In this document: one piece after another, positions 891 to 56,513 of the stretch
How positions within the stretch are numbered: the stretch's first letter is position 1
Layout: each line of letters opens with the position of its first letter
Assembly: GCA_031213475.1 (NCBI GenBank)
Contig: JARUPZ010000007.1
Span: forward strand, 9,784,458 to 9,848,457
Length of the DNA stretch: 64,000 nt
From: Nereocystis luetkeana
Lineage: Eukaryota; Sar; Phaeophyceae; Laminariales; Laminariaceae
Direction of reading: 5' to 3'
Translations under genes and position numbers: made by a program
The notes under the pieces: model-generated
Told to the model about the DNA's origin: nothing
Database searches by the model: none
Seen by the model: the letters and a program-made list of their open reading frames with translations, nothing else

Positions 891-1093
891 CGTCGTCACA
901 TGGTCATCATGTCTACGTACCTGGTATGTATATACAAAGTCGGTGGGGATGGTGGAGGGTGGAGGTGGCGATATTTTCTTTCGAACGGCGAACTGACTGC
1001 TTGATTGTGAGCGAAGTAGATAGAATAGGACCTACGTAAGACCGACCAAAAGGAACGAGAAAATGTAAGAGTACGTAATCTCGAGTTGTTAGT

Positions 1094-1210
1094 ATTACGG
1101 GGGGTCATAGTTAATAGGGCCAAATATTGTTAGTAAAAATGAGTAAATACATACCTGGTAGGGTTTTGTGTGTACCGTAGGTCCTATTTACTATGTGGTC
1201 CCCCGTAATA
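1094..1210 (+). mobile_element. TA-flanked MITE, copy 1
   Basis: Inverted ends TATTACGGGGG(A)CC / GGTCCCCCGTAATA. Compared with other copies, it carries a clean 7-bp insertion CCTGGTA after a TA at about 1,152. Confidence 0.85.
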
Positions 1211-2084
1211 ATATTCAATAATAATAGTAGATATCTTGCACCGCAGGGGGGAAGGGATGAACAGACATACATCCATATAGCGCACGTTGCTGTGATGGTT
1301 TTGGTTGTTATTGTTTACGGTGTTGCAAAAGGCGTTGGTGATATTATACGTGGTGGTAGCAGTAGTGGCGGCGGTGGTTGTTGTTGTTGGTGATGATATG
1401 ATGGGTTTTTTTTCAACAATGCGTATTAATACCGGTACCTTCTTTTTAATAAACGAGGCAACAATATCATACTGTTGGCTCATCCTTGGATGCACGTATC
1501 AGCTTTTCGCGCTCGGAGCCTCTATTCTTACGTTCAATCATGATCAAGTAGTAGTGGGCAAAATAGTTTCGATCGGAAATGTTTTTGGCCATTTCTCCGA
1601 TGAAATATTTGAAATCCCATCCTAAAGAAAACGTCCATCCTAAACTTTATCTCGCAATGTTTAGTATAGATGACGGGCTCGAAGATATGAGGTACACATT
1701 CGACAGACTGGCATGTATTTTCAACTGCCAGGTTACTATTTGCGAGTACCGAAACATGCGATGAGGATCGCAAAACACAAAATAAAGGCGAAAAGTAGAA
1801 CGTAATGAATGTTTAAAAAGACCTACGATAGCATGCACTTTTTTTTGCCATTCGAGACGGATACAGCAGTAGGACTCGTAGATAATTTGCTGTGGCACAA
1901 AAAGTAACCCATTCCTTACTGTTGTTGTACTGTAAAAGACCTGCTATATATAGTATGCGATTGGAAGCGCGAAGTACACAAAGTCTTCTTTCAGCTCGTG
2001 CGACGATAGACGATAGACGCTCGATCTCGACAGAGACTGAGCCCACGCCCAACCCCCACTCGGTGGCGGGCAAGATCAACTAAT

Positions 2085-2215
2085 AATATAGATGACGAGC
2101 TCGAAGAAATGAGGTGGATGCATCCTCTAGGGGGCAAGAGCTTGCCGGCGACGTCCTACGGTATCCTCAAACACCTGAAAAAAAAATCATTTTTTTTCCA
2201 TTCGAGACGGATACA
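2085..2215 (-). repeat. Second copy of the 5.1-kb repeat, lacking the tRNA-like part
   Basis: Shares GATGACGAGCTCGAAGAAAT-like start, CTCTAGGGGGCAAGAGCTTG, and CCATTCGAGACGGATACAGC with 5,115-5,245. A third fragment is at 1,840-1,870. Confidence 0.6.
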
Positions 2216-2479
2216 GCAGTTACTGCTGTGAGTAGTAGTGCTCGTATCTATTGTTTTTCGTCTATTTTGAGCACACCAGCGGGCAACGCGCTGCACCATT
2301 GAGCGTAGGACCCAAGCGTCTGAGCCAACCCTGACTGCCTTTCTTTGATCTGGCGAACAGCAGTGCTCGACGTACATACTCTGTATTCATCGCCACCCTT
2401 GCACAACAACACCGCACTACATACAGCAGTAGCAGGCACCTGGTCTGGTGTTTAGACGTCTCCCCAACTCTGACTGCCT

Positions 2480-2930
2480 TACACGGTATGGGATACCTGG
2501 TATGGTATATGTTGGTGGTATATTGTATATTATGGGAATATGGGATATATGTTGGTAGTATGGTATATATATGGGAATATGGGAGAACCACCGTACCTGG
2601 TATGTGGTGTGGTATGTGTTGACGGTATGGTACGGGAAAAACACAGTATATGGTTTGGTACGTTTGCGGTATGGTACCCTGGTACGATGTCGTGGATATT
2701 TTTTACGGCTAAATTTACCTGGGGGTATGGTATGTTTTAGTATATAAGGTCCGTAAGGGTCAAACACGTCGTACGAATATCATCGGTAAAGCGCTTATAT
2801 ATCGGCCATTTGGAAAGTGTTCGAAAATATAAACCTTGCGGACAGACAGACAGACAGACAGATTTGCAGTTACCAAAACAGAGACTCAGTTCTACAAACT
2901 GAGATTACCACTCCGTCCCTAATCATTAGG
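2480..2930. repeat. Dispersed repeat B, copy 1
   Basis: A TATGG/GGTAT-rich head, then TATATCGGCCATTTGGAAAG, a (GACA)n tract of five units and CAAAACAGAGACTCAGTTCT. It carries TACCTGGTA at about 2,593 where copy 2 has TA. Confidence 0.75.
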
Positions 2931-2964
2931 ACGGTTTGTCCATCAATATACGATCAAAACGGTC

Positions 2965-3350
2965 TTTATCACTGTTATTGCCCTCGATGAAATGCATTCG
3001 AGCGCTGTTCTCACAGTTTGCTTGTACGTACTGGTATTTTTTTTGTGAAGTCGCAGTTGGAATTGGTGCGAGTGTGGAGAGAGACCAGTCGGCACCGATA
3101 CAGACGGCACCTTGGCTCTCAGACTGAACGTCTGCTTTTCTTCCTTGGAACCAAGAACAAAAAGCTCATGCTTCGCGCTCGCGCGCCTCATAGTAAAATA
3201 CGGTTACAATATTACGGGACAGAGTGGTATGCCAGTACAGCAGTACGATAGCACGGCGAGAGCAGGACGCCCCACCCCCCAACAGCCATCAAGAGGTTGT
3301 GGTTTGCCTGGTCCATACGGCGGTGATGTATACGGGAAAGCACGTCTTCT
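2965..3350. repeat. Dispersed repeat A, copy 2
   Basis: Matches 320-890 without the duplication. Where copy 1 reads GCTTGCCTTTTTTT this copy reads GCTTGTACGTACTGGTATTT, a further insertion rich in TA-bounded palindromes. Confidence 0.75.
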
Positions 3351-3897
3351 GCCGAGATCTGTTTGTCGCAGAATATCCCCTCTCGCCTCTAAGAAAAGCC
3401 CACACGGCTCAGCAGTTTAAACGTGACAAGCGCACTAAGACACTGAAAAATCTTTGAAATACTCCCTGTAAATAAATGTTGCAGCAGATGTTGACGTACC
3501 AGCACATACATGATGAGTACGTACGTACGTGTTTGATGGTGAGTCCCACTATATATAGTATGATATTCGTACATGTATGTTCTTGGCTTCTCTTCTGCTC
3601 TTGATATATATATGAAAAACGCAGTATGCACACACCTACCTGTAAGATTGCAGGGAGGGGTGGTCCAACAGCGCAGGGGGTGATACTCGTGATTTCTGTA
3701 GGCAGGCTAGCGAGCGGCGCATTGTGATCCTGCAGCTCTTTGTTTCTTAAATCGGGGGGACGGAATATACGAGGGTAACAAACAAAGTGATCGACACTGG
3801 GACGAACATACTACATGTCTGTACTACACAGAGGGTTGGAAAGTAAAAGCGAAGTACTTTTCGTCTTGAAGTTGATGCGAAATAGACTTTTACAGCA

Positions 3898-4022
3898 TAT
3901 TACTACAGGGGCCCATAGTAAATAGGACCAAGTATTGTTATTAATAGTAAAAATATAGGGAAATATATAGGCTTTTGTATCCACTGTATAGGTCCTGGTA
4001 TTGAATATGGTCCCCCGTAATA
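3898..4022 (+). mobile_element. TA-flanked MITE, copy 2
   Basis: Same inverted ends, left end diverged. It has a clean 6-bp insertion TTAATA after a TA (giving TATTAATA) at about 3,939. Confidence 0.8.
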
Positions 4023-5039
4023 GAAAAGTGGGAAAGACGAAGAAAGTGAAAGATCTATCTACCGTGATTGTCATTCCCATTGATTGGTGAAACAGCAGCA
4101 GCAGCAGTGGTCTGATGGGGGGTGCGTTTGTACGCACGACGGTTACAAAGTAATCAACCCGATACTCGTGGTCGTACTATAATAAATAATAGTAGAATAC
4201 TGCCGCGCTTTTGTTCTGGAGAGTTCTTCACTTTCTGTTATTATAGTCGTTTATTAGAACAACACTACACATTGTCGGATGGCAAGCATAATAATAATAA
4301 TAAATAATACCTCGTACCAGGTAACCGACAGCCTCTCGTATTATTAATAGTAACAAGTACCCTGGTACTCGTAAGCGAATTACTTTTTTTCGTCTTAAAG
4401 TTGATGCGAATTAGACTTTACAGTTTGTTGTCCAGTGAAAACCTTGTGGTGGGTTGTTCACACGTTCATACATCATTCGACAGATTGACATGTTTTTTCA
4501 ACTGCCGGGTTATTTACGAATACCGAAATACGACGAGGGTCGCAAGACATTAATATAGGCGAAGTAAAAAGTAATTCACTGCTGTGCTGTCCCCGTACCG
4601 CCGCTGTTTTTGTACCGCCGCTGTTTTCAGCTGCAGGCGGCGCAAATTTGTTTTTTCTCGTCGCAAAGTGTCAATACGCTGCTGGTGCAGATCAGCTCAT
4701 GCGACGATAGACGCTTGCTCTCGACATAGACTCAGCCCACGGCCAACCCGTTTCGTGGCGGGCAAGGACAATTATTAGTCTAGACGATTTTTATTTTTAT
4801 TTTAGTCATCACTTCTACTTTCCAGCCTTGCGTACTCGTGGGAGGTTTTACCCTCAACGAGCTTCTGGACAAGCCGTGGTTACAGGTGTCCACGCTTCTC
4901 TCCCCCGGTACGTGCCTTTATTTGTTTGTCGCGCATAGGGTTCAGCATTCCCACTGCTCGTCGATTTTCATCGAATGTAGCTAACTCACGCTCTCGCGCT
5001 TTCCGCTAATCAATTTCTTTTTTGCATGAAAAAGCCAGG

Positions 5040-7045: not shown

Positions 7046-9818
7046 TCGACCTTTCTGCCGTTTTGAACGAACGATCAGCAACATCATATCATCTCTCATT
7101 ATTTTGCTGACCCATCGCGACCCCCCGTTCGCCAACATAGCTACTCAGTTAATCTCAGGAGATATCCCCTCCTTAGTCACTGCGACAACAGCACTATTAA
7201 CAGTACTCTAACACTGACACCACAATGCCATGTACACTATCAGCACATCAACACATACGTAATACAGAACGTCGATACTACGATATGGAACACAGAACTT
7301 CGTTACAAACCACCTTGTAGTACTTCGTTACAAACTACCAGGTACTCGGTACAGCGCAGTACTTCGTTACTACCGTGGAATAGACACACACCTGGACTAC
7401 GTAGACACTACGGCATCAGGAGTATTACATACGTCACGGGTACCATCTAGGCGGTACTAACGGTTAATATCTGAGAACATATAGCGAAGCCCTCCCCCCC
7501 CCGCTGTGTGCCACAACCCCACAAAATGTGGCAGCAGTGAGCACCGGCTCCGACCTCGCCTTAGCACTACTCCCGAAAAACACTTACTCTACACACCTAT
7601 GCACATTCGTACATACAGCACAGACACATAAAATGCATTGCAATCAGCTTCGTAACGTAACGTTGTGTTTCGGTCCTTATGGATGAACTCACGGCTACTG
7701 CAATGCAGCCGACACGGCGTGTTTGCCATGAACAAAAAAAAACAAAAAATACTAACTGGTACTCTACAACCAACAAGGGCAGATCAAGAGCAGATGTACT
7801 ACTGCAGGCAAACAAGAGTATAGAGGTGCCACAACAGCGGCAGGCAGTATGCTCTATGCATCAATACGTACAGTATCCGATCATCCTGTCACGAGTACAG
7901 AGAGGTAAGTAGATTAGACTTGAGAATACAGGAATCAATGTATACTTACAACCACACCGAACAGCGGCACAAAACAGCAGCAGCAGAGCACTACAGTAGA
8001 CATGGTACAGAAAAAATGCTATGCACATTCCTGTCTACGGTACAGCAATACTGATGGGAACAACGAAGCTTATCGGCAAACACATCACAACATTCCAACG
8101 CACCCCCCCCACCACCCACCCCCCCAAAAAATCCGAGCCTATATCAGTCAAGGGACACTTACGATACTTTCACAACTGAAAGGGAAATACCAGGTACCTA
8201 CTATTATTAATAATACCATCACGATACGACAACCAAACCCACTAGACTAATAGTCGATCGTATCATACAGTATGAGTAGAATGAAAAAAATAAAACCGGC
8301 AGCGAAGCGAATGAAAAGCTAAAGCAAAAATAAAGCATCGCTAGTAATGACAGAATGGAAGTGGATGTGCTTTTCGCCCGCTAGCCGACTAAACTAAAAA
8401 CTAAAAAACCCCATCCCCTCTCTTCTTTTCCAAACAAAATCGTCCGCATGCATGCATCATTATTATGCGGCATGCTTAAACCGCGGACCGAAAAGAGCTC
8501 CCCCCCCCTCCCCTTCCCTCCCACGTATAAAGGGCTAACGTTTATGTTTCCCCTTTCTTGTTGCGCTATACACTCGCACTCTGTTCGGAGATATAAGCAC
8601 AATTTGAGCACCAATAAGAACACCCAAACAGTCCTTACATTTCCGGACAAACTAGTACCAAAGGTACCATTCTACTAGCTCGTTACCACAACAAAAAGCG
8701 ATCTGCATCGTTTTTCTTCGGCGTACCCGTTCAGTGGTTACGGTAGTGCTCTTAGGGAGGCCTGTAAAAGCCGAGGATGTGTGCCTATCAAGCAACCTCT
8801 TCTGAAACAAAAAAACGAGCCAGTAAATAAGAGTAACCGCTAATAACACATTATTACTACCAGAGTACCAGTACAACAGTATACCAGGTTCGGGGGTACA
8901 TATTTCCTCCCGAAACAAAACACAACAACCAAGACGAAATTTTGGGGAGGAAATAAAAAGCAAAACCTGTGTTTGGCTGCATCCCGATCGCCGCCCCCCT
9001 CCCCCCCCCCCCTACACCCCCTTACACTCTCCTCGTGAGAGGCGCCCACCGGTTTCAACCGGCAAGCAGGTACTAGTGGTACAGTAGCAGCAGCTGCTCT
9101 ACGATGGCAACAGCAACGACCAACCAACCATGGCAACAACACTACCACTCTGGTCGGAAATATAAGGCATATTTAGACATTAATACGAAGACAAAGCGGT
9201 CCTTATATTCACCGTCAAAGTGGGACGAGAAGAACGCGCATAACGCCACAATGGAGAGCTACACATAAAAAACAAAAAACGATCGTCCTGTGCGGACGGA
9301 CGGACGGTCGAACTGCCGTGGACGGATGTGGTATAACGTTAAAATCCTGTCGTTCGGTGTAGTATATATATGCTGTTCGTGGACGGCATTTGATTCGACA
9401 GCACATGCTGCAAAAAACGCCGTCAGACCGTGAAATGACCTTCCCAACACCCACACAACCACCCGTCTAACCATCCATCCATCCCCCTATCTACGCACCC
9501 ACCCATCCCGATCCCGCGACACTCGATCTAGGCACGCCTCCTCCCGGGCAAACTCTTGTCAGCAGGCGACAGAAAACAGAAGGACGACAACAATAAGGAA
9601 AAGAGAGATTCAACCAAACAGCTACCAGTAGGGTAGACTTTAGACTATAATACTGTATTTGCTGCGGTGTGTGCTATATATTGATACGTCTATCATAGGT
9701 TGTAGGATGTTTCTTCTCTCTCACTCCCTAGGGATGGATCGTGGTGCTGCTACCGGTGGTAGTGGTGGTGGTGGTAGTGGTGGTGGTGGTGGTGGTGGTG
9801 GTGGTGTCGGTGGTTGGA

Positions 9819-9923: not shown

Positions 9924-12900
9924 CTGCCCAAAGGAAAGTTTCACGTAAAATATGTATCGGCACAACACGCAAGGCACAACAAGGTTACTTACAAAAGGGC
10001 TAGTATGCGCGGAGGCATTTTTCCGACACCGAACGAATCATTTCTGAGGGGAAGAAAGCTACGGTGCCATTCTGGTGGGAAATACAGGGTGCACTTACAT
10101 GGCCACAAAAAGGTCCGAATGCACTATTTTTTAACGATCAGACTGGAACTCGTGTGCATGTACTCTGCATTTCCCGGCACAAATCAATCGCCATCGCATT
10201 AGAACGGCCACAAGAAGAGCACAGCAGAACAGCTCACTATCAATGCCAATCACAATAATAGGGGCGAAACGAGAAATGTGACTCACGCGTGACTTGTTGG
10301 GCACCGAGTCGTCCAGCCTCTCCGGCAGCAGCATGATCTCGTCGAACGAGCCGTCATACATGCTCCTCTCCTTCACTGCGCACTGTTAAATTGTAGGAGT
10401 TGCAAGGCGGGTAGTATGGGTTCTGTGTGTTTTGTATGCGTTGTATGCGCGCAATGCGGGACTGTGTGTTTGTATGCATTGTATGCGCGTTGTATGAGAA
10501 TGTGTGCTAGTATGCGTTGCATGCGCACAGTATGAGCACTGTGTGAGTTTTTATTAGTAATATGCTCGTAGTATGAGCACTGTGCGTGTCTGTGGGCATG
10601 CACGTAGTATGAGCATCTCATTAGAATCATAATCGACACAGAAAGGCAAGGAGCACAACGAAAAATGACGAGATAACGCAATAAATAGAAGATAAACAAC
10701 GTGAAGGGGGGAGGGGGGGTGTACCCGATAGGAGTGATGGTACTCGATATCATGCATGGCCGTAGTCGTATGGCCATAGACCCTCGCATCCTCATTTTGC
10801 CGAGGCGGAGCGCGTCGGGTGTTCACCGACCAGGCAGACATTGCTTGTACCAAGCGCGAAGCGCCGTGAGGGGGCGAGTCGCATGAAGGGTCAGCTGCAT
10901 CCTACTAAGAACCGCTTGTGAGACGGACTTGCATAATGATGACAGCTTCAATTAGTTAAGTTAGTTTCCGGTGTCGCCACTTCCAGAGACAGCAATGGGA
11001 GTACTATGTAACTAACTGCCTCTTGGGTGCCTTACCATAAACACTACGTGATACGACCATGCCCCGAATGCGGACTAAAAGTTATTTACCTCGCACTTAT
11101 GATCACACTCGACCATCAGCTGTGACCGACCCACAAAAAACAAAAAGTACCCTGGTTGTCTAGCTCACGTAGTGAGCGGCATGTTTTACAGTGTCGTTGC
11201 CAACCGACGCCAACCCAACCTGCAGTATACCTGGTATATAATAGGGGAGGGGGGGGGGGGGCGTTCGTAGAAAGTGAGGGGGTGGAAGGGGAGAGAGGAG
11301 ACCTGACTGACGGTTTCATCGAGAAATGTATTATGCGGCATGTAGACTACTGTAAGTGCTGTACTCTGCACGACGAGAGCGCAAGAAACATCCTTTGGTT
11401 AATATAGCGGGATGAACTTTAGTCCGGTAATGGAAGGACCATTGGGATATGCATATTGTGACCCATACGGTCCTTACCTCTCAGCACATCATGATACCAG
11501 GTGGTAGAACTCACGTGCAACGAGTTCACGCGAACTAGACGCAGACCCGGCTAACTAGTATCATACGTACGTAAGGAAATGGAATATCCGATAACTTTTG
11601 GTTCCATATAAGCACAAAAAGAACGCGGGGATGATGCCAGGGGATGGAGGGCTATATGTAAATTCGGTCGATATTTCGATATATCGATACGTGTCTTCCT
11701 TCTTGTGGTTCCCCTCGGTTTTTCTCTTCCTTCGGGGAATGTTTATGAGTGGTCAACGTTCAAGATATTGTAGTCCAGAAGGCTACTGTAGTCCAATAGG
11801 CTAATGGAGTCCAATATTATACTGTGGTCCAATAGGATACCGTGGTCTGTTAATAGCCCAATAGTGTTTCTTCTTCTCTCGGGGAATGCAGGAGTGGTCA
11901 ACGTTGAAGCTTTTGTAGTCCAAAAGGCTACTGTGGTCCAATAGGCTACTGTAGTACTTCAACAGGCTACTGTGGTCTAATCCAAGAGGTTTTCTTCTTC
12001 TTTCGGGGAATGTTTATGAGTGGTCACCGTTTCAGCTCATCATTATGCTGCACATTTTAGGATGGCAAACGCAACAAATAAAAAGTCTTCCTAATAGTAC
12101 ATTAATACAACACGTGATGCAAATAAATAAAGTAACAAAACTTCCTGCTAGGTACACCATATGCAAAACAGCCAGTATATATGCTTGAAATAAATACTAG
12201 ACATACCTGAAAGTGGAAGATCTCTGACGCGTCCCCCCCATCATTGTATATTTCTTGTAGTTCCATCGGTTCTTGGTCTATCATGAGGAGCTGCTCACAT
12301 GAATATTGATATTACATAAAATAGCGGTCGCGCCAGAGAGCACGGGAAAGGGAAGGGAAGGGAAGGGAAGGGAAGGGAAGGGAAGGGAAGGGAAGGGAAG
12401 GGAAGGGAAGGAAACGTGAAACAGACGAATGTCAACATATTCTTGTTTTCATGCCAGACGACAATCAATGCGCAGTGTAAGCTTTGACGTCGATCACTCG
12501 CACAAAAAAGCGGGCATATCGACCACGAAGGGAAACCTTAAACCTTATTCGCGCATCGGACAGAGCATGTCCTAAACCAGCATGTACAGACAGACCATCT
12601 ACAGAAACATCTACAGATACATCGTCTACAGGTATGTCATCTACATAAAGTTCCTCTACAGATAGATCCTAAGCCGCCGTACCGTGTGAGTTGTTGCACA
12701 GGATATGTATATAGCGCAGATCCAATCCAGGAAACACGTTCTCGATCATACCGGAATACGGCTCCCATTCGGTAACATGAGCTAGATCATATAGATCATA
12801 CAGATCATACAGATCATTCATCTATTTGCCCTGAAATATCTCGATCACGAAGTAGGAATCGCCGATCTGTCCGACGTGTGAGCTTAGTGGACACGAAAAT

Positions 12901-15900
12901 CTTGTTTCACTTTCTAAAAGTTGCCTTCTACCTCCCAATTTCTCGAGTGCTTTTTACCTCCCGATTTCTTAATTATCACGGGCCACCAATTTCTTAAGCT
13001 GGTTTATAACTCCCAATTTCTTGAGTTTGTTTCCCATTCCCGACTTCTTAAGCTGCATACTAACTCCCAATTTCTCAAGTTGAATTACTAACTCTCAATT
13101 TCTCAAAGGTGCTTACCAACTGCCAACTTCTTAAGTTTTGTTCTAACTCCCAAATTCTTAGGTTACTAACTCCCGATGTCTTACGTCTTTGTCTCACTCC
13201 CAATCTATCACGTTGCTTTCTCGCACTGCACTGCTGTACAATTGTTCCTTCTTAATATTTTCGTAGAATTAATGGTTTCGTAGAACGTGTATGTCGTGCG
13301 TGTCGTATCCAGTAAGAGACATGGCATTGCGTTGTCTACTCTGCTTACGGCCAACGTAGTATCTCTGTGGCGTATGTTTGTGACCACTGAACTTGAAGCT
13401 CTCTAGGATTGAAGAATAGGCACGGACACTGGTTCTGCTGTATGTCGACGGGTAGAAAGAACGGTTTTATGTTAAGAACACACACCCAGATCTAGACTAC
13501 AGCAGCAGCAAGTGCTCTTTCTACTGCAGTCTACCTGGTATACTTGTATATTGCTGGACTGTTGCTCTCACCGTGTGCGCGAACATGTTGTTCTCCCTTA
13601 GCTCCCGCCGAAAGAAAACGTAGACCATCACAACGGCGAACGAAAAGACGTCGCCATCAGGGCCGGCATGAATTGCGCTGTTCAGATTTTCCACCGGGAT
13701 GTACCCGGGGCTCCCCGTTCTTGCCTCAGTATTCGCGCCGATGTCTATCAAAGTACAAGGTATTGCACAAGGTGTTTGCGCGGTATTTTGAGGCAGGGAA
13801 TCACGGGGGGGGCAGGCGCATGCATACATCATGCGGAAGGGGGTATCAGGGCGTCGGGGATCGGGGTCACGCTCGTTACTGCTGTGTGCTGTTGAAAACC
13901 TGCAGGACAGGGATAGGAGGTTGGGGGATCACGCCTTTCTCTTCTTGTTCGTTGCTGTTGATGTCTGGTGTGACATTTGCCTTTGGTATGTTCAGTATGT
14001 TTTCCTGATTTGTTCTCTCTTTAGTCTATACGTGTGCACGGAATATCAGCCTATTGATAGCCGAGTATCTTTTGTCTTTGAAAATAGTATAGTCATTCTG
14101 TCAATCTTCTTTTCCTTGCTCTTCTTGCTTGGAGCAGACTATTACCTGGTAAGTCCTACTATTCATAGTAGAAACGCCAATCAACAGTTTTTTCTAATCG
14201 CGCGCCATGCCGAATTCGCCAACCTTGGCAGTCAACATTGTCTCTTTCCCTCCTACTAACCAGTTAAGGACTGCACTCCCAACCTGGGGACAAATCACTT
14301 GTATTTAGAGTCCGATATATGCGTATAGTACAGTGCAGTAATAAAAGGGGTGGCTATACCGACACTGATGCTGCCCGCTTTTACATCCCTGTGGGCCTTT
14401 CCCTTGGCGTGCATGTGGTTCACCCCGCATGCGGTCTCGTGCAGGAGTCTGCAAGAGGGCACTGCACTTCTCTGTCCGTGCCTCTTTCGCAGGCTCGTGC
14501 ACGAGGGCGCATAATGCGCGCTGAGCCGCATGCACGACAACAAGAGAAGGCCACAGGGACATAGAAGCGCGCGTGTGTGCGTGTCGCGACATCACTGTTG
14601 TAGAAGGCGGCGACGAAACAACTTTTGACAGCTAAGGTCAAGGTCGCCGACTTCTTCGGCACTGCGTGCGAGCGATGAGAAAACAAATCACGCGCTTCAG
14701 AAGTGGCATCCCTTGTCGAACCCAACAAAAAAACAACAAAAAAGGCAGGGGGGGGGAAGGCAAATCATGACAAAGACCCCAAGACCAAAGATAAAGACTG
14801 CTGGTATAGACTAGTTTTCTATCATACTGTGTACCAAGTATAAACAACCTAAGAAGGCAAACGACACCAAGCTGGACAGACGAAAGACAAAGCACAAGAT
14901 ACCAAAAAGACAAAAGACACGCAAGACAACAAGCAACAGCGACACCGACAAGGAACCAAAACGTTGCGACCACCCGACCCCCGACCCCTGTCCTCGAGTC
15001 TTCAACCATAGAAGCACCGGAAAACGTTTTTTCTCTATGCTCATCTAAAATAACAGAAGGCGTGACCTCCCATCCCTGATCGTCTGGATACCCCCATCCG
15101 CATGTATGCATGCGCCTGCACCCCCCGTGATTCCCTGCCTCAAAATGCCGCGCAAACCTTGTGCAATACCTTGTACTTTGATAGACATCGGCGCGAATAC
15201 AGAGGCAAGAACGGGGAGCCTCAGGTACATCGCGGTGGAAAATCTGAACAGCGCGGTCGAGGCCGGCCCCGATGGCGACGTCTTTTAGTTCGCCGTTGTG
15301 ATGGTCTACGTTTCTTTCGGCCGGAGCCCAGGGAGAACAGCGTGTTGGTATTAACTCTCAACATGTTGTTCTCCCTCAGCTTCGGCCGGAAGCAAACGTA
15401 GACCATGAGAACGGTGGACGAAAAGACGTCGCCATCCGGACTAGCCTCGATCGCGCTGTTGAGATTTTCCACCGGGAGGTACCCGGAGCATCCCGCGCTC
15501 GCTTCCGTTCTCGCTCCGACGTCTATCAAAGTACAAGGTGTTATACAAGGTTTGCTGCGGCATTTTGAGGCCGGGAGACACGGGGGGGCGCAGGCGCACG
15601 TATACATGCGGATGAGGTAGGGGATCGGGGATGGGGGTTGGGGGGTCGCGCCTTCTGTAGTCATAGAGGAGCATATAAAAAAATAATCCGCTACTACTGC
15701 GTGAGTTAGCTTGAAATCTTCAGGACAGGGATCGGGGGTCGGGGGTCACGCTTTTTTCTTCGTCGTTGCCGTTGCTCCCGTTGTTGCTGTTGTTGTCACT
15801 ATCCTGCCTGTCTTCTGCGTATCTTGCCTTCTAGTCTATTTGTCTTTTTTTCTGCCCAGCTTTTTACCGTTTGTCTTCTAAGCTTCTACTTCGTACACGG

Positions 15901-18900
15901 TGGGATAGACTACGTACATAGTCTTTCATCGTTTGTTTTCAGATTTGATGTCAATAATTTTGGCATTTTCCCCCAACACTTGTTGTTCTTGTGGTTGGGT
16001 TCGATAGGGGATGCCCCTTCTTCAATGTCTCATCTTGTTTTTCTCATCGCACGCCATGGCAAAGAAATCGGCAAAACCTAAACCTTGGCAGTCAAAGTTG
16101 TCCCGTCCCCCTCCTCCACCTACAATGATGTCGCCCTCTTTCGCATCCCTGCGGGCCTTTCCCTTGGCTTGCACGCGGCTCAGCCCGCTTGTGGCCTCGT
16201 GCTGGGGTCCCCAAGAGGCATGGCAGACTGCCTAGAGGCAGGGCAGACTGCCTCTTGAGGGCTCCTGCTTGAGGCCGCACGCGAGGTGAGCCACATGCAC
16301 GCTCAGGAAAAAACGTATAGGGACGTGGAAGCAGGCAACGTCATTATCGTCGGAGAAGGAGGCGAGTGACAGCGTTGACTGCCAACGCTACACCGACTTC
16401 TTCGGCCTGGCGTGCGATGACGAAAACAAATAAAATCGATAAGACACGTTACACTACTCGTACAGCACATTTCAATGGTTTCCCTGATTACGTTAGCGTG
16501 ATACTTTCTGTCCGACGGGACTCCCTTTACCCAAAACTCGTGGGAGTTCCATTCTTATTTTTGCCAAATTGCAGTGTTCGTGCACCTAGGCTATAGGGCT
16601 ATTCATTTATCAACCATTGACTGGACTGTCATTTTTGCTAAAGTCAGTTTATGGGTGACTTCGAAATAAGAGCTCCTTAAGGGCAAGTGAGGAGCCTCAC
16701 AAAAAAATGGTGCACCTCTGCTCTACCTATGACCTCAGAACCGTTGGCTTCTCGCAGGGGTGTGTGCGATCGTTTTTCAGCGCTCTATCGCCAGAACGGG
16801 AAGGTTAAGGTTGCCAATATCACCGAACAGCACTGTGTTTTCGGAAAGATCCGTTCGAGAGCCTTCCGATTCTATAACGTACCTGGTACGACCTTCAGCA
16901 CCCTTACCGTTGTTGAGAAAACTACCAACAACGAGGAATAGAAGGCAGAAACGATGACAACTACACTAAAGACGAAAGGCAAAACGTTAGGCTATCATAC
17001 CGTGTACCTAGTATGTTACAGACTGAAAAGACACGAGGTACAAACACGGAACAAACAAACGTAAAGAGGGCCCAAAAGGCTAAAAAGACACAACACGACA
17101 ACAATCAGCAGCAAGAAAACAGCACCGTGATGAGCATTTACGTCTTGGTACTACAGTCGTAGCATAGATAGTTTGTGCTTCACATATCCCACCGCCTTGG
17201 GGGAGGCTGCCGACACCTACCACACACAGGAAGGTCCTTTTCGTTGCTCCTTTCTTTAGTACGCTCGGCGTAAATATAGCATACTCGTCCACGAGATGAG
17301 GGCGGAGTCTTCGAAAACGCGTGACGTTCTTAAGGTTGGCCATTGAACACATTGAACAGTAGTGACCAGACGTATGCTACGACAGGGATTGCAACATGGA
17401 GCACAGTACCTTTTTTTGTTGAATTTAGGGTACAAGTACCTTTTTCGTTATAATTAGGAGTGATGTACCTTTTTCTGGTTGAAATGATGTGTACTGTACC
17501 CTGGTTTGGCCTAACTATTAATGACCGACGGGGCTCCTAAACCGATAAATCATCCTACAGCAATATACCACTGGAATACTTTTATTAATAGTGTCCTATG
17601 TTCTACTGCATTGCTCATTGTACGCCTAGCCCGTGGGGTGATTGTCCATCTCGGGTTGTTGTCCATCTCTTTTTTTTCTTGATACGATACGATACCTTGT
17701 CTTTTCTTCTCTGTTTTTCCTACACGGGGCTTTTCTTTTCTTAAAACGATGCATCACGATATATACGTGTCTTTCCTTTTTGTTTTGTTTTCTTTTGTTT
17801 TCTCACCGCACGTCATACCGAAGTCGGCAACCTTGGCCGTCAAAGTCGTCTCGTCGCCTTCTCCCACGACGATGATGTTCCCCGCCTTGATGTCCCTGTG
17901 GACCTTCCCCTTGCCGTGCATGTGGCTCACCCCACACGCTGTCTCGTACAAGAGCCTACAATAAACGTGGAGGGCAAGGGACACGGGCAGAGCAGGACCG
18001 GAGCAAGCACACCATAGCATGTGTCGGTCGGAAAAATAATAACTTTGATCAGAAGGCGGCGCGCAAGCGATTTTCGTGAAGAGTTTACCTGGTGCTAGAT
18101 ACCTGGTATGTATGTAGATTACCACACTTCGAACAGATCATGATCTGAAACACATACCTGGTACCTTGGTAAGGTAGATCAACTTCATCATCTATTAATA
18201 CTAATGTAGATCCTACATTTCCATAGTTGCCGGATATGAAATGTTGCACAAAAAAAGCGATATCCTACAGATAGATCTCACCGGTCAACCATGTAGCACA
18301 AGAGTCATGCCATACACAGATCACACCCGGCAAGCGGGAGGATCTCAAAAGTAGATCATGCAAATCCTATAAATCAGGGACACACATACATACGTTTCTG
18401 CCCCCGCAATATTGATGTACATCATGAGATGAGGATCTGATTCGATTCGTGCGATGGATGATACTGGAGACTCCAACATCGATGATCAGGCAAGGTCGCG
18501 GGGACACTGTTTCTCCAAAGTCGAGCTGAATACGAACATACAGCAGTTGACGCCCGCCACCCTCAAGAAATACCTGGTACCAAGTAGCGGAGTCAAGACA
18601 TGTGGCTCGGCGATCACGAACAACCACAACGAATTTCGTGTGAGAAACACACATCAAGGTTGGGTGGACAACAAGATAACAACCAGGTACATAAAACACG
18701 GTGTGTAAGAAGCCGTTTCTCTAACGTCGAGCTGTATGAAATAATACGGGTACGATATGAAAACTTGTTTGTTGCGTCTGCCCGTTCGCCCCCTATTCCG
18801 CTCGCCCGAACTTGCCCCCCCCCCCTGGCGTAGGGCCTTAGTAATGAGGAAACCTCAGTGCCAATGGAGATATGGGGCACAATCATACCATATCATATCA

Positions 18901-21900
18901 TATTTAGTTGTATCACATCATGGCATAGCAAAGCATATCATACATTATCATATCATAAGTGGGAGCGTTTTTACTGTAGGAAACAAAACCCAAATACGTC
19001 AGCTGTGACACCAAAAAACAAAATCTAAAACCTTTGATACTCTCGTCTTCGAAACGCAAGGTGCGTGCGTGTGTATGTGATATGTAGATACCAGGTATGA
19101 CACTTCCGTTTCTTGGTACTCGACATCTACCGAACTCGCCTGATCTTAGCCGCCATGGATATATCAGCGTCATAAATGACGTCGAACATGTCCCTCGACC
19201 CAGCCTCCATCATAATGGGCATCGTGGGGAGCGTGGGGTCCATAGCCACCACACGGATAATGTTCGCGTGATCCGACACACTTCGCGGCAAGGGGCAAGC
19301 CACGCAAGGCAACATCCATTGCACGAGCAGAAATGGGAAACGCGTACGTGAGGGCCGGCGTGGGCGTGGACGTGAGCGTGGCGGGTGGAGGCGGGAGTGG
19401 GGTTGGGGGTGGCGGTACGGGTGCCGGTGGAGGCGGGGGTCGGGGCGGGGGGGGGGTACAGGTGGGGGGCATGTGCAAGAAAGAAGTGCCAATCAACATA
19501 GTGGGCGTTGCCCGCGTCTCAACACAAAGTGTGTCGGACCACGCCAGCATCATCCGAGTGGTGGCCATGGACCACACGCTCCCTAGCATGCTTATCATGA
19601 TAGAGGCTGGCTCCATATATATGCCAGCGTCACACATGATGTATGACGCTGGCATATCTATGGAGCCAGCCCCCATCATGATCGGCATGGTGGGGAGTGT
19701 GTGGTTCATGGTCATCACTCGGTTGATGCTGGGGTGGTCCCACACGCTTTGTAGTGAGACGCTAGGGAACATCGCCCGTAGAGAAAGGGGAAATGCGCCA
19801 AGACGCCATAAACTGCGCATGTGGGGGCGGGGGTTACCGAGGTATGGATGGAGTTTGGGGGTGGAGGTGGGGGTAGGAGAAAGAAGTACTAGAGCTGTAA
19901 CGTGGCAATCTCCGCAAACCTCCGAGGTGCATTTCTACGTATCGGTGCTACTGCTGTATGGTACGTAGCATGGATGCTTTAATTTAGAGCGGTGGTCAGG
20001 ACAGAAGTGTGGGTGGGGGGCGATCAACCACTACACTCCTTGCGCCGCAAAGACAATAAAAGGGTATTACGGTAGAGGGCGGTTGGTTGGGTGTGCTGAT
20101 TACATCACATTGAACAGGTTTCCACAAACAAGATGCGGTGATGATTTTACGACACCCACAATTATCCCTCCTTCACTCGTTCACACCACCCGACTTTTAC
20201 CAACTACACATCACCTTTCAGCAGCGCACACACTACTCACTGGTACCTCTCAACGAGAAATACCCTCGCAGGAAACGCATGCTGAAACTACAGTATAATT
20301 TCAGGGCTGCACGTCCAGCATTATCTGAGGCTCCTCAATTGATTGTACTGTATACTGTATGTAGCGTAGGAGCTCTCCTTCTCGACCAAAATCTGACGAA
20401 AACAAATCAAGGTTGACAACCCATGGCAAAAATCGGCAAGAAAGGCGCCGCGACAAATCTAAAAAACCATTAGGACAAAAATGGTCACCTCTGTCTTAGG
20501 GCGAGTCTAGAGACCGGCCACACACTAAACGTAGTGCGGAACACACTCTTAGCGAAAAAGAAGGTCTATAGCCTGGGCTGGTATCCCGTCTTTTTTACGA
20601 ACCCTTCTAAGGCAAACTGCAGTCCCGTTGTGGGGACGAAACACTCAAATTATGAGCAGTTCGTCCCCAAAACGGGACTACAGTTTGCCTTAGAAGCGTT
20701 GATAGAGGGCCGGTATCCCGGCTTCTTAAATGACCGCCGGTAGCCCGGTTCCCCAACAGAGGGCCGGTTCTGATACCGCGTATTCTCGTGGGACGGCTTC
20801 GTCCGATGCCATATTTACTAACTCGAAAAAAGCAACAGCTGTGAGACAGAGGACTTCGTCGACACCCATCTCCGCAAGCTGTGTGTGACACTTCGATCGT
20901 GCGTACGGCGGGTTTTGTATGGCCTCATGCAGGAACTACAGTCCGCATACGTATGAGGAAGACAAAATCTGAAGCTGCAGAATTCCAAGGAGTGGGAGTG
21001 TCTATCTATAGCACGCGCACTAGACGTGGCATCCTGTGAACGCAACTTCGTTCTCATGCATATTACCATGCACGCATAAGCATGCACACGCAACAGACTG
21101 GCATTGCTGCATTCGTCAAATACTTGAGGGGGTGACACGACACGTACCAAATACCAGCAGCTGCATCAATATTCTCACCTCAGTACTGTCTCCATTTCGT
21201 TGCGGGCGGACTGCTGTTCTTCCTCACCGGCCTCCTATAGCAGTAAAGGAACGAAATAGCGAGAAACGGGGGGGGGTAATACACGTCAAATCAGAGGCAA
21301 GACACACGCGGCATACCGCTAATACTTCACAGAACACAAAACAATATAACCTTCTATTAATAATCTATACCTGGTATATCTAATACCAAGTATAAATACT
21401 TACACGAGTGTACGTAGAAACAACGAAACCCTCACCTCGATAAGGCTCCTTCACAGCATAGCGCCCGAATTCGTGCAGAACGAGGGAAACGCGTCCGAAC
21501 TGCCCCTCGCCGAGGACCTCGTGCCATATCAGGTCCACGTTATCCTCGCACCGCGAAAGCGAGCAGTTCCGCGCGAGGTACTCCCCGGGGGCGGCCACCT
21601 GCGGGTCGTCGAGGCCGCGCAGAATCTCGACAAGCCGGGTAGTCATGCCCAAATGCTCTTCTTTAGTCGATATCCTCACGGCGGAGACCGGCAGCGCCAA
21701 GGAGTTGCCCAGCCCCTCCTCCTCCTCCTCCTCCTCCTCTCCCTCGTCCTCGCCCTCGTCTTCCTCTTCACCTTCGCTCGATTGAAAAAGGAAGCTGTCA
21801 GCCCCCGAACTGCCGGACCGAGCACAGCCGCCACCGCCACTGTCGCCGCCGCCGCTGCCGCCGCCGTGGACACCAAAGACACCGTCGCTTTCGTACGCGA

Positions 21901-33270: not shown

Positions 33271-33385
33271 TATTACGAGGGACCATAGAAAATAGGACCA
33301 ATTATTGTTAGTAAAAATGGTTAAATATATAGGTGTTTGTGTGTACCCTAGGTCCTACCGGTATTTAGTATGGTCCCCCGTAATA
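33271..33385 (+). mobile_element. TA-flanked MITE, copy 4
   Basis: As copy 3, but with a clean 6-bp insertion CCGGTA after a TA (giving TACCGGTA) near the right end, about 33,358. Confidence 0.85.
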
Positions 33386-45200: not shown

Positions 45201-47092
45201 GGGGGAACCAAGAAGAGGTGAGGTCCGCCGGGAAGTTAGGGAGGTACAAGGCAGAAGTAAAAGAAATGATAGAAAGAACGGAAAGGCTGGCGCTAAGAAA
45301 CAAGGGGGAATCGGAAAAAGACGCAAGAGATATACGGGGGAATTGGACGGAATAGATATGAAAACCTATTTGGACGGACCAGTGGACTTTGCAAAACGCT
45401 GACACTGCGTTTTCGTGTAGATAACCTGGACCTGCCAGAAAGAAGAGAGAGGTGTATCAGTAGCCAGGAGGAGGAGGAAATAGTGCACAGATGTGCCCGT
45501 GTGGCGAAGCAACAGAGTAGAAGTCACATAGTATGAGAATGTGAAATATACAAGGAGGAACGGGATGTGTTACAAGAGGAGATGAGGGAAATAGACGAAT
45601 GTGACACGGAGGAGCTTGATACACTACAGTAGATATCAACGAGAAAACAACATCTATCCTACGAGATAAATAGTGGCCACAGGCGGCCAAACAGGAAGGG
45701 GGTACGATTAGCAAAACGTTTCTATGTGATACATGGAAACAACGTAATGAAGCGCCCAATTGTAGGAGGTGTCTCTAATTGGAGTAGGAACGATGTTTCG
45801 TCCCGAAAGAGATGCGTGGTCAATGGTCAAATGACCAAAGCAAGCAACAAATGAGTAAGCCCCTCCCCCCCCCCCCCCCCCCCCCCCACCCGATCAGTAC
45901 ACTCTTATCTACCAGGTATACTCTACCAACGTTTTCTGCTCAACCCCAACCCACCCCCTCCGCTGTGGCTTTCGCTGTCCTCCGGAGCATACAAAACAGC
46001 AGCAACAACAACAACAACCACAAAACATCGACAGCAACATCGACGGTAACAACAACAGCACCGCAACCACCACTAGCACCACCACCCCCCCCCCCGACCC
46101 CCACCCCACCCCCACCCCCACCCCCACCCCACCCCCCACCCCCCACCAACACCAACACCCCCCCTACCCCCACCACCACCACCACCAACTAACAGCACAA
46201 ATCGCGCGAATAAGGTCTTGGTACTCGTAGCAACCACTACAGCAGTAACATCCTTCCTTGACGAACGCGGCAAAATCCCTCTCGCGCAACTTACCGTCCG
46301 ATCCCCGGCGATTGTGTTCAGACACGTCCGGCGTTGACCCTCTGTCGCGGAGCAGCAATCGCCGTCGTTTGCCGTCGTCGATGGTTGCAGCGGTTGAAAG
46401 ATGGGGAGGGAGGGGGAGATGGGCGGAAAGGGGCCGGGGGGGGGGGCAGAGGCGAAGACGGGGGAGGGGGGAGGGAGAGGAGGTGAAGGGGGGGGGGGGG
46501 GGCGGGGAAGGGTTGGCGGGGGGACGGGGGAGGGGAGGGGGGCATATTAGCGCGCGCGGGGGGCGGGGGGGGGGGGGGGAAGGGGGAGGAGGAATGGTAG
46601 GGTAGGGAGGAGAGGTAGAGTACTGCTACGCCAGACCAATCGATTGTGAAGCGACAGTGACTGATCCTCCCATTGAACAGCACGATGCCCGTGAGCACGC
46701 GCACGACGACAGTACTGTATTTTCACTCATGGCGCGTCGGAACACCGGAACCGTACGTAGACTGCAGCAGCGAAAAAAAAAAATGCACGAACAGGCCTAC
46801 TCGCCCTCTTTCTTCTTTCTGTTCTATACCATCGCTAGGGCTGACTCGTCATGCAACCACCTAACCAATCAATCGAAAAATAAATCAACCAACCGACCAA
46901 CCAGTAATCGACCAATGCTCCAGGCCATCACGGCCATCACGGACACTTCGATTCGCTTGACCCGACCCGACCCGACTCGACTCAGTCCAGTTCGGTTCGG
47001 CTCACCCCGATTCGGTGCGGGCTGAACACGATCCGGCGGTCGCTCCCGCCGCGGCAGACCCCGAACTCGCGGCAAAAGTGCTCGGCGATCTC
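36513..47092 (-). CDS. TBC-domain Rab GTPase-activating protein gene, ten exons
   Basis: Exons, 5' to 3': 47092-47006, about 46360-46295, 44439-44349, 43796-43698, 43333-43207, 42437-42342, 41120-40984, 39648-39504, 37355-37138, 36630-36513 (stop TGA). All junctions from 46295 onward agree in phase; the 47006/46360 junction does not, so an exon may be missing there. TBC motifs in order: GPPLERVPGLY (motif near R-x-x-W), IEKDLKRT (I-x-x-D-x-x-R arginine finger), VGYVQ-GMNF (glutamine finger), DDEEKAFWVFVGML, HLPDLYEHFEACGV, ATSWFVTLLSD, VKMLWDRIF. By family knowledge such proteins speed GTP hydrolysis by Rab GTPases on membranes. Introns hold MITEs, LINE and SINE-like fragments and simple repeats. 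Exons upstream to 62.8 kb may belong to the same gene. Confidence 0.85.
37385..37850 (-). mobile_element. SINE-like repeat, copy 2, with internal 134-bp tandem duplication
   Basis: Tail GACGTCGAGTACACCCCCC at about 37,440. The 5' part (GCACCAAAGCTTTGCGAAGC to TTTTCTCGTCGGC) is repeated in tandem, starts at 37,581 and 37,715, nearly identical. Part of the 3' region is also repeated (37,490-37,530). Confidence 0.65.
37958..38066 (-). mobile_element. TA-flanked MITE, copy 5
   Basis: A near-consensus copy in reverse orientation in a TBC intron, directly beside a 24-bp poly(G) tract. Confidence 0.9.
39095..39265. repeat. CAGATCATCTA-type minisatellite
   Basis: About fourteen diverged 11-13 bp units. 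Confidence 0.6.
39504..39648 (-). CDS. TBC exon, HLPDLYEHF and SWF motifs
   Basis: Reads FFQLNRLMMWHLPDLYEHFE then ATSWFVTLLSD, ending GGMLPDGE at GGCGAG/GTAGGA. It contains the conserved L-P-x-L-x-x-H-F and W-F motifs of the C-terminal half of TBC domains. The acceptor lies against a long poly(C)/poly(G) tract at 39,650-39,700. Confidence 0.85.
39943..40032. mobile_element. piggyBac-like MITE, copy 1
   Basis: Inverted ends of about 35 bp: CCCTTTTAGGACCGCAGTCC and its complement (GGACTGCAGTCCTAAAAGGG), flanks close to TTAA. The CCCTTT start with a TTAA target duplication is diagnostic of piggyBac-type elements. Confidence 0.8.
40250..40675. repeat. Minisatellite that starts inside a piggyBac-like MITE fragment
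   Basis: 40,252-40,310 is MITE-like (GTAGGACTGCACTCGGTTCC). It then passes into about fourteen units around GTGCCGAAAACGGGAGTGGT. Confidence 0.7.
40848..40900 (+). mobile_element. Minimal LINE 3' end
   Basis: Only GGGCAAGCAACAAATGAGTA followed by a C-rich tract of about 30 bases, showing extreme 5' truncation. Confidence 0.5.
40984..41120 (-). CDS. TBC exon, core helices
   Basis: Reads GMNFVCRSLLQVYDDEEKAF then WVFVGMLQRFGFRELY and LLRLR, a segment highly typical of TBC domains (D-E-E-x-A-F-W-x-F-V). Acceptor CACCGTCAG/, donor CTCAG/GTAAAT, phase 0 in and 2 out. Confidence 0.85.
41535..41740. repeat. Tandem repeat, about 53-bp unit, four copies
   Basis: AATGTAAGGAACCCTTGGAT and TTAATAATATTATACAATA; AT-rich, in a TBC intron. 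Confidence 0.8.
41809..41917 (-). mobile_element. TA-flanked MITE, copy 6
   Basis: Reverse orientation, in a TBC intron. Inverted ends mildly diverged. Confidence 0.9.
42126..42210. repeat. (CAA)n microsatellite
   Basis: 28 perfect units in a TBC intron, 130 bp from the GC-donor exon. Confidence 0.95.
42342..42437 (-). CDS. TBC exon with arginine finger and GC donor
   Basis: A 96-bp exon (32 codons) from GTGACAG/GAC to GTGCAG/GCAAGTGG. It reads DLKRTLGMTDVRSLRNVL to VPDVGYVQ. The donor is GC with an otherwise perfect consensus (CAG/GCAAGT); no GT alternative keeps the frame to the next exon, which begins GMNFVC. The Q is the catalytic glutamine finger. Confidence 0.85.
42655..42725 (+). mobile_element. 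SINE-like repeat, 3' fragment
   Basis: TATGGCCATACGACTATGGC ... ATGCATGACATGAGTACC then C-rich tract; 3' end only. Confidence 0.5.
42885..43175. repeat. (CAC/ACC)n-rich tract
   Basis: Two imperfect arrays around CACCACCACCAACACCA in a TBC intron. Confidence 0.8.
43207..43333 (-). CDS. TBC exon with the first half of the arginine-finger motif
   Basis: Acceptor ATCTCCAG/, donor GAGAAG/GTGGGAG. Reads PPLERVPGLYAALLSSADA and ends FVDIEK in phase 0. The next exon starts DLKRT, so the IxxDxxR motif is cut by an intron between K and D. Confidence 0.8.
43815..44045. repeat. (GGGGTG)n-like G-rich tract
   Basis: More than 200 bp of G-rich repeats ending in a run of 16 or more G, in a TBC intron; the C-rich strand is the transcribed sense. 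Confidence 0.8.
44478..44570 (-). mobile_element. Short LINE 3' end
   Basis: Minus strand: CCCTTTCGTGG-like region to GCAAGCAACAAATGAGTACG and a C-rich tail. About 80 bp, inserted 40 bp from a TBC exon acceptor. Confidence 0.65.
44770..45890 (+). mobile_element. LINE (non-LTR retrotransposon) 3' end, decayed
   Basis: The plus-strand frame reads RIKRRILMNVIVPKLEYAGE then VWEGN and LEIVQTTAATKI, the typical segment after the reverse-transcriptase core of non-LTR elements (V-x-P-x-L-E-Y-x-x-E-V-W, L-E-x-V-Q). Downstream, with stops and shifts, come CEIYKEERDVLQEEMREID and RPIVGGVSNWSRN, ending in GCAAGCAACAAATGAGTA then a C tract of more than 20 bases. It lies in a TBC intron on the opposite strand. 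No intact ORF. Confidence 0.75.
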
Positions 47093-47635: not shown

Positions 47636-47639
47636 GTTC

Positions 47640-54588: not shown

Positions 54589-55182
54589 CTGGATCATCTT
54601 TTCCCTGTTTCTTATTGCGTACCTGGTACCCGGTACGTATTTTGTACTCCCCTGTACTGCCTGTTTGTTGCGCGTACGCGAAACGCGACTTCACGCCCAC
54701 AAGACCTTATCAAAGCCTGTCGGTGTATGATGGCGTTGTTGACGCTCACCAGGCAAAAAAAAATATCCCACGAGGAGACCGCGGTCCGACCTCTCGACTG
54801 ATCGCCCCTTCATTAACCGTGGTAAAATAAGGCTAGAAGAGGTCTTGACGGAACCAAAAAGAACGGTCTCCTATCAATAGCGTTTTAGGTTATTTCCGAG
54901 AGTATGTACGTATACAGGTATCGTAGCCTCATCCCCAAGCACAACCCCCCCCCCCCGCCGGTCGAGTGGGAGCCTTATGCTTGGCTGGGTAAAAAAAGCA
55001 GCCGACGTAAGTCGTTGCCAAGTTGTACGAGTAGCAGCTTCCGCCCAAAACTACAGATGAACGACGGTGCCGCTATACGGGCATGCATGCGCGGAGCCAA
55101 GACGGGCGCCCGCCCGCCGCCGCGAAGCCCCCCGTGCATACTACTATTAATATTATTTGTACTACTACAGCAGCACAACTTC

Positions 55183-55291
55183 TATTACGGGGGACCATAG
55201 TTAATAGGACCAAATATTGTTAGTAAAAATGTTTAAATATATAGGTTTTTATGTACACCATAGGTCCTATTAACTATGGTCCCCCGTAATA
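55183..55291 (+). mobile_element. TA-flanked MITE, copy 9
   Basis: Near-consensus copy, 13 bp from copy 10 and in opposite orientation. The flank is a (TAC/TAT)n-like tract. Confidence 0.9.
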
Positions 55292-55304
55292 CTATTAATA
55301 CTAC

Positions 55305-55431
55305 TATTACGGGGGGCCACAGTAAATAGGACCTACAGTATAGACAAAAACCTACCAGGTATATATTTCCCTGTTTGTACTATTAATATTATAACAATAT
55401 TTGGTCCTATTTACTATGGTCCTCCGTAATA
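55305..55431 (-). mobile_element. TA-flanked MITE, copy 10
   Basis: Compared with copy 5 it carries two clean insertions at TA: CCAGGTA (about 55,350) and TTAATATTATA (about 55,380). Confidence 0.85.
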
Positions 55432-55633
55432 CCTGGTACTATTTCTGCTACTTCTATTACTACTACTGCTATTGCTACTGCTACTACTACTGCGACTACT
55501 ATTAATACTATTAATGCTACCAATACTATGTATACATACTACTACCGGGTACGATATTACTACCACTTTCGGTAAGAATATACCAGGTATAGCACATCAG
55601 CACAAAAACAGTAAAAATCAATGGTTGGCTCAC

Positions 55634-55731
55634 CTCGAGTGCCATCCGTGACACCCCCGGACTCGACGCAACGCACGATGACGTCGACATCATACGCCGC
55701 CCTCTTCAATCGCCGGCACACCCCGCTGTAC
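55634..55731 (-). CDS. Exon of unknown domain
   Basis: Acceptor TTGCGCCGCAG/, donor CTCGAG/GTGAGCC, phase 2 in and 1 out. It reads YSGVCRRLKRAAYDVDVIV then RCVESGGVTDGTR. The splice sites are good and the other two frames are closed. No family recognised. Confidence 0.55.
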
Positions 55732-55817
55732 CTGCGGCGCAACAAGTTTACAACACAACAGTAGGGTGACCTGACAGGTGACATGAACGATTCCATATTC
55801 CAACCTTCAGCTTTCTT

Positions 55818-55955
55818 CTCTGTCTCATAGTCCGCGTCCACAGAACTAGTTACCAGGGTATATCTCTCACGGAGAAGGAATCAGGACGGACACTGGGTGT
55901 ACTTATGATGAAGAAGGGTAGAAGTGAAGGTTTAACGTGCGGACAACACACACAG
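55818..55955. repeat. Dispersed repeat D, copy 2
   Basis: GAAGGAATCAGGACGGACAC and TGCGGACAACACAC match copy 3. Confidence 0.55.
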
Positions 55956-56513
55956 ATTGTGTACCTGGTATGAAGTACGTTTATTGAAGCAAAGCAACTA
56001 AAAAAATATCAAAATATCTCTTCATAATAACTGGTTTGTCGGAGTTTTGTACAACTGCAATTCTATCGGCAAACGGCAAACGAAACAACAGCAGCAATTG
56101 CTGCTTCTACAGAGCTTGATGTAGAACAAGGTATTTTCATGCATGTACACAAATACGTGGCACAACAGCAGTATAAATATATACATTGACGTCTGCAAGT
56201 GATCATGAGCGGTAGTGCAAAAAATCGCACGTATAGGTAGACAAAACAAATACGATGTACCGCGGTAGAGAAGAACATCGTTAAACGTGAAGAACGACAC
56301 AAAAAAAACGAAGCGGTGGTATCGAAAAGTTATTCAAAGCTCATATTTGCAAGCTTGGTGTGGTACTTCGATCGCGCGTTCTCGTACGGGGTGTGTAGGT
56401 TTTTACACATGAAATTGTTGCGAGACAGCGAGACTAAAGGATTAGCAGCAGAGGCTCACCCCCAACGGGAGTTCGAGGCATGCATTTACCCTCCTACTAA
56501 TAGTATTACGGGG

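Follow-up and report, generated by a model that had tools for sequence, protein, structure and literature searches.

Published work on transposons that insert at TA describes the short scars such elements leave behind. Passages of two papers report that excision of Sleeping Beauty or Frog Prince produces C(A/T)GTA scars via 3' overhangs of 2-3 nt (PMC3878927), that Tc1/mariner footprints range from 2 to 4 bp, and that ZB targets TA with an AT-rich palindromic preference (PMC7913693). In rice, part of a further study reports that merely 8 of 94 excisions left just two copies of the target site duplication (PMC4423477), and for Ectocarpus 17 Mariner-Tc1 families with almost 12,000 copies, mostly non-autonomous, are given in a paper whose main text, in the portion available, lacks the words footprint and excision (PMC12477816). 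We examined a 64-kb stretch of kelp DNA (hereafter the window; C7:9784458-9848457 of a genome of 465,085,209 bp) in which a sequence-only reading had described the palindrome TACCWGGTA (W, A or T) as a scattered insertion. We found that this motif arises by a 7-bp gain at TA and occurs about 182,000 times in the genome, and we lean towards the view that it is the excision scar of a TA-inserting, Tc1/mariner-like cut-and-paste transposon with CCWGG ends and 5-nt 3' overhangs. Copies of the motif are called scars below.

The window holds 28 exact copies, 18 of TACCTGGTA and 10 of TACCAGGTA, which are its two most frequent TA-NNNNN-TA words (the next occurs 6 times); the reversed word is absent. 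Simulation gave a mean of 0.48 and a maximum of 4 copies (300 first-order simulations), in agreement with the earlier estimate of about 28 copies where about 0.5 would be expected. Each of the 27 coordinates listed with that estimate lay at most 11 bp from a true site, the 28th site being at 29483. Markov models of orders 1-3 predicted 0.48-0.66 copies and order 4 predicted 1.1, while the 4.6-26.9 copies predicted by orders 5-7 are inflated because the motif itself then determines its own expectation. Two extra sites have a central C or G (54627 and 55543). Genome-wide, 182,395 copies were counted against 1,744 of the reversed word, i.e. one per 2.55 kb and about 100 times the control, and five 10-kb pieces picked by position alone contained 14 copies and no reversed word, where the genome average would give 19.6. 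In a 195.6-kb set with the window satellite masked, which is biased upward because scars guided the choice of the C1 pieces and L066-L068 lie in a cluster rich in scars (a bias from which the genome-wide count is free), 102 copies were observed against 2.06 expected. The sequence-only reading had suggested setting the motif against random expectation and against other TA-bounded palindromes, and TACCWGGTA ranked first among those tested (one to three arm letters, with centre W, S or absent). The central base was A or T in 102 copies and C or G in 2 (TACCSGGTA). Another palindrome, TAGGWCCTA (17 against 0.59 expected), contains words of a miniature inverted-repeat transposable element (MITE) considered below, and several others in the ranking were AT-rich or TACG repeats.

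The hundredfold genome-wide excess over the reversed word argues against an artefact of composition or sequencing, as does the motif's presence in contigs that look algal and belong to separate metagenome bins (L015, L020, L025); no point in support of an artefact was found, and we give it practically no credence. L015, an algal contig in a bacterial metagenome bin, carries three scars and matches G000:C4 at 98%, and the near-equal lengths of the match (query 1-1403, 1,404 genome bases) suggest that all three are also present in the kelp genome. No report of a TACCWGGTA scar was found among the titles and abstracts listed by literature searches, and of the 109 papers containing the string TACCTGGTA, none of the 20 listed was about transposons by title.

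Paralogue pairs with and without the motif differ by 7 bp, CCWGGTA, added at TA. We collapsed each of 85 scars (variants included) to TA and aligned it to the same DNA, comprising 165.6 kb together with L010, L011 and L015. A paralogue spanned the site for 31 of the 85 scars, and for 18 of these 31 at least one counterpart was ungapped within 12 bp on each side of the collapsed TA, a test that demands the absence of a gap and not the presence of TA. Weak cases among the 18 are 55430, C1_82028 and C1_11089; the other 13 showed a gapped alignment, a scar also in the paralogue, or an ambiguous picture. Aligning paralogous repeats, as had been proposed, thus revealed presence and absence at sites, and the claim that the motif is an insertion and not just a common word held. 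A clear gain was observed at the scar in repeat B (TACCTGGTA, 2594..2602), where the copy at 6197-6375 (aligned over 6197-6344, 88% identity) has TA alone, the clean 7-bp difference noticed earlier. Further clear gains were found at C1_46694 against two copies (94% and 92%), at C1_85904 positions 2712 and 7995 (88-92%), and in MITE copies at 1152, 55353, 33356 and L015:2762 (identities up to 87%, 80%, 89% and 92%, respectively, in the printed rows). Some repeats had a scar in every copy seen, such as C1_58040:3186 and its kin.

The MITE is near-palindromic, and its alignments thus take in both strands. Once the site was collapsed to TA, other MITE sequence aligned without gaps in 25 of 37 cases for the TACCTGGTA scar at 1152..1160 (copy ~1093-1220), and in 24 of 29 for the TACCAGGTA scar at 55353..55361 (copy ~55296-55432); since these alignments mostly show the empty form, the change is a gain. 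Both had been cited as insertions in MITE copies 1 and 10, and the gain at TA stands, but the two occupy the identical MITE position and may represent a single inherited event. The variant TACCGGTA at 33356..33363, previously described as a gain of CCGGTA in another MITE copy, is likewise an insertion (paralogues of up to 89% identity have TA alone), and at C1_85904:3384 an existing scar has gained TACCGGTA at its TA, an addition that three paralogues lack; two copies of this variant are demonstrated as insertions by paralogue alignment. Clean 7-bp gains at TA within repeats and MITEs are difficult to reconcile with a functional 9-bp palindrome, such as a binding or methylation site, spread and maintained by selection. 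The palindromic form and high copy number would suit such a site, but the motif decays (see below) and selection on 182,000 sites seems implausible, and we consider this explanation very improbable.

The TAs that host scars differ from ordinary TAs in their surroundings. Across 138 flank sides, with neighbouring scars removed and with sides inside paralogous repeats being non-independent, T was up and A down at +1 (p=1e-5), G and A were up at +2 (p=1e-6), T was up at +3 (p=6e-4) and +6 (p=3e-8), and A/T was up at +7 (p=1e-15). This pattern, T-R-T adjoining TA and A/T at +7, is a target preference whose palindromic symmetry is assumed and not demonstrated, since both flanks were pooled. TA itself was found at +6/+7 on 27.5% of scar flank sides, compared with 7.6% around ordinary TAs. 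Scars also occur close together: the first 100 C1 sites included 19 gaps of 200 bp or less against 7.0 expected, and 8 pairs 7 nt apart that form doubles (TACCWGGTACCWGGTA). This clustering is partly due to duplicated scars in local repeats. Five same-centre and three mixed-centre doubles were observed in the 195.6 kb, some being paralogous copies of each other. A C1 double, TACCTGGTACCAGGTA, was missing as a whole unit from a 94% identical paralogue, and in L068 a double (5925) and a single scar (6529) lie in two copies that are identical over the 25 letters upstream, a pair that could also arise by slippage of the 7-bp unit. Doubles may arise because scars themselves supply TA-N5-TA spacing. 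TACCWGGTACCWGGTA also occurs in viral contigs (9 loci), each of which has the double, with one extra copy in L002; these were taken as chance.

Older, decayed scars are also present. In the 165.6 kb (satellite masked), which contain 72 exact copies, 61 one-mismatch neighbours of the motif were counted. A second-order model predicts 37, and the same count came to 14-29 for each of ten permuted palindromes and to 70 for the repeat word CTACWGTAG; the excess indicates that decayed scars exist. Across 98 paralogous blocks (62,060 aligned columns, 5,744 substitutions), 29 scars lay opposite a gap, 23.5 were common to both copies and 21 fell in neither group, giving a rough rate of one unshared scar per 200 substitutions in blocks that overlap. 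Decay and unshared scars together would place scar formation across a divergence on the order of 0.1 substitutions per site. The two observations resemble a historical record and speak against programmed elimination, in which elements present in the germ line or another life stage would be cut from the sequenced tissue, as are the TA-bounded internal eliminated sequences (IESs) of ciliates. Such elimination would account for many scars without donors; ciliate IES excision is normally scarless, and we regard this explanation as improbable.

The excision that we favour would proceed as follows. An element with ends reading CCAGG or CCTGG would integrate at TA, duplicating the TA, and on its departure the transposase would cut 5 nt inside each end. 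Each broken flank would carry a 3' overhang equal to the terminal 5 nt of the element. Between the two overhangs CC would anneal with GG, making four base pairs out of five, and the A:A or T:T mismatch left in the middle would be repaired to A or T, giving TA-CC(A/T)GG-TA. The many scars would stem from a fairly small number of copies that jumped again and again. This few-copies origin, the donor element, its CCWGG ends and the 5-nt stagger are the parts that we infer. A single central mismatch in a 5-nt overhang predicts the W centre, and the strong bias of the central base agrees with this, the residue being palindromic with a single central A/T ambiguity. Gain at TA with a duplicated TA was seen, excision itself being unseen, and the target preference, doubles and decay also fit. 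The sequence-only reading had suggested the excision scar of a TA-targeting transposon with CC...GG ends, and that suggestion fits these features; the donor search came back empty in the 233 kb read.

Several results weigh against excision of such an element. The 5 nt between the TAs exceed an overhang length of 2-4 nt and fall outside the 2-4 bp range of footprints, so the scar is at most a variant of the Tc1/mariner footprint. Its uniformity is unusual beside the rice excisions as reported in part of that study (PMC4423477). Outside the 25.9-28.8 kb satellite, the expected repair variant TACCGGTA shows no clear enrichment as a word (8 copies in the masked 195.6 kb; 7 of the reversed word in 165.6 kb). 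We read 233,110 bases of the 465-Mb genome (the window, the C1 pieces, L061-L068 and eight transposase loci, two of them extended) for the full-length element with TA-CCWGG...CCWGG-TA ends envisaged in the sequence-only reading. None of 35 pairs 45-9,000 bp apart, neither end being a scar, had matching ends (at least 10 of the next 20 bases) in a scan that ends with inverted repeats of only ~5 bp would escape. With GGWCC as a control, 5 of 18 pairs matched, these being the MITE and other inverted repeats, and thus the scan is able to see elements; none of 8 CGWCG and none of 29 GCWGC control pairs matched. Earlier scans of the read sequence for a CCWGG-ended element were also negative, and short end pairs 5-35 bp apart were near chance genome-wide (392 versus 345 for the control, with a pattern that excluded ends with T as the sixth base).

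DDE_1 elements insert at TA, and the DDE_1 profile gave 28 matches in the genome, 15 of them without stops, so that a transposase of the superfamily is present. One open reading frame (ORF) of 415 aa scored E=7.5e-27, with a Tc5-type helix-turn-helix at 20.1 bits, below the 22.2 cut-off. At the eight DDE_1 loci, where read, no CCWGG ends were found, and the DDE_3 profile matched 0 of 30 candidates, both further points on the negative side; the Transposase_1 profile matched 0 of 3, with its control also silent and the result therefore uninformative. With 57 unscarred half-sites in 165.6 kb, the genome could still contain several thousand elements. Five of the DDE_1 matches (G000:C2:7920664, C809, C872, C1099, C1378) have identical scores and three internal TAG codons each, four being on high-numbered contigs; these are either recent copies or assembly duplicates.

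The lack of a donor in the sequence read, the lack of excess among short spaced pairs, and the high uniformity and very large number of scars would all suit a direct micro-insertion, in which an enzyme adds CCWGG and TA at TA and no long element was ever present, e.g. when a transposase reaction is cut short and only the end is inserted. The fixed letters CCWGG would still need a source, ordinary excision already accounts for the details, and to our knowledge no process adds CCWGG directly at TA; we judge this explanation rather unlikely.

Several candidate donors were rejected. A tiny element was suggested by a 29-bp TACCTGG...CCAGGTA (C1_26150:2208) and a 30-bp one (L071), and was set aside on the near-chance count of short pairs. 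The MITE has TTACGGGGG ends and not CCWGG, and the half-site families (TACCTGGGGTTAGTC..., TACCAGGCAGGAGC..., TACCTGGATGATGC...) lie in paralogous blocks that continue across the TA, which is thus not an element boundary. The inverted repeat at L066:4053-5623 is instead a large segmental palindrome with arms 91% identical, a near-perfect core of ~350 bp and scars at the core edges.

A broader proposal, which we advance tentatively and at less than even odds, is that a TA transposase with an unprecedented 5-nt stagger, or an element-free micro-insertion, may have written the same 7-bp insertion into the kelp genome over the long term. Scars create TA-N5-TA, the preferred target spacing, and under such long-term writing would feed further insertion at the same place, leaving ~182,000 datable marks. 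One uniform scar at this density is sufficient for a genome-wide record of transposition, which could help to date activity and to tell lineages apart, and could explain 7-bp indels between strains of kelp. The scars could also bring to light a cleavage geometry new to the Tc1/mariner group or, if no donor exists, a mutational process without a name.

Besides the scars located above, the word count placed TACCTGGTA at 918..926, 2494..2502, 11228..11236 (paralogue comparison ambiguous), 13532..13540, 14143..14151, 16880..16888, 18100..18108, 18155..18163, 18571..18579, 21368..21376, 24932..24940, 26746..26754 (in the satellite region, with paralogue alignments gapped and not clean) and 55962..55970. 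TACCAGGTA was placed at 4315..4323, 7336..7344, 8188..8196, 19089..19097, 23882..23890, 25739..25747, 45910..45918 and 55581..55589. A tandem double TACCTGGTACCAGGTA (29476 + 29483) occupies 29476..29491, a double TACCTGGTACCCGGTA with central C in its second unit 54620..54635, and the variant TACCGGGTA 55543..55551. The weak empty-site case at 55430..55438 is TACCTGGTA at the TA bounding MITE copy ~55296-55432, with a match on the MITE side only. All scars are given without strand.

The MITE family is ~110-130 bp long with inverted repeats TTACGGGGGACCATAG... and TA at its ends. Copies in the window lie at ~1093-1220, 3897-4025, 24399-24513, 33262-33387, 37956-38067, 41808-41919, 47525-47636, 54077-54320, 55181-55300, 55296-55432 and 56495-56614. 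It is evidently abundant in the genome, where a query that included copies drew 11,842 first-look candidates (40 scored), and alga-like MITE-bearing sequence was also found in the bacterial metagenome bins of L010, L011 and L015 (g2_MAG_00016, g3_MAG_00007 and g3_MAG_00016). A satellite-like array with a 41-bp unit rich in TACCGGTACC spans 25900-28900; its TACCGGTA words at 25.9-28.8 kb look like part of this unit and were not retained as separate scars. An interstitial TAACCC-like repeat is present at 59903-59988. The scar at 21368 lies directly downstream of a kinase-like ORF (21380-22885, minus strand), an apparent first exon that includes stretches rich in serine, glutamine and glutamate. 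Matches to this ORF include Undaria pinnatifida models (79% and 77%) and other proteins (up to 100%), over 73% of the searched stretch, and its Undaria relatives carry protein-kinase Pfam domains. Judging from these matches, the source is a brown alga related to Undaria.

Among known systems, the IESs of Paramecium are removed by a TA-bounded excision related to Tc1/mariner. The kelp scars are likewise TA-bounded, but Paramecium leaves a single TA, and nuclear dimorphism is not demonstrated in kelp. The Minos-type footprint is 4 nt and that of mariner 2-3 nt, and the kelp overhang would be longer than either. Overhang length does vary within the superfamily, over the 2-4 bp given in part of PMC7913693. 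Like the Stowaway/mariner scars of rice, those in kelp would be traces of TA-inserting elements in a nuclear genome; the rice scars, in the sections of PMC4423477 that describe them, are mostly irregular with deletions or fillers, whereas kelp has one dominant uniform product, in a motif search that sees only this product and that irregular scars would escape. The closest likeness is to the TA-C(A/T)G-TA of Sleeping Beauty and Frog Prince, in passages of PMC3878927 also a TA-bounded odd palindrome with a W centre, and on our annealing argument that scar may likewise be explained by self-complementary 3' overhangs with one mismatch. The kelp scar differs in having 5 nt (CCWGG) in place of 3 nt (CWG), an A/T preference at +7, ~182,000 genomic copies and a donor not found. 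What is new is the 5-nt scar and the scale at which it occurs.

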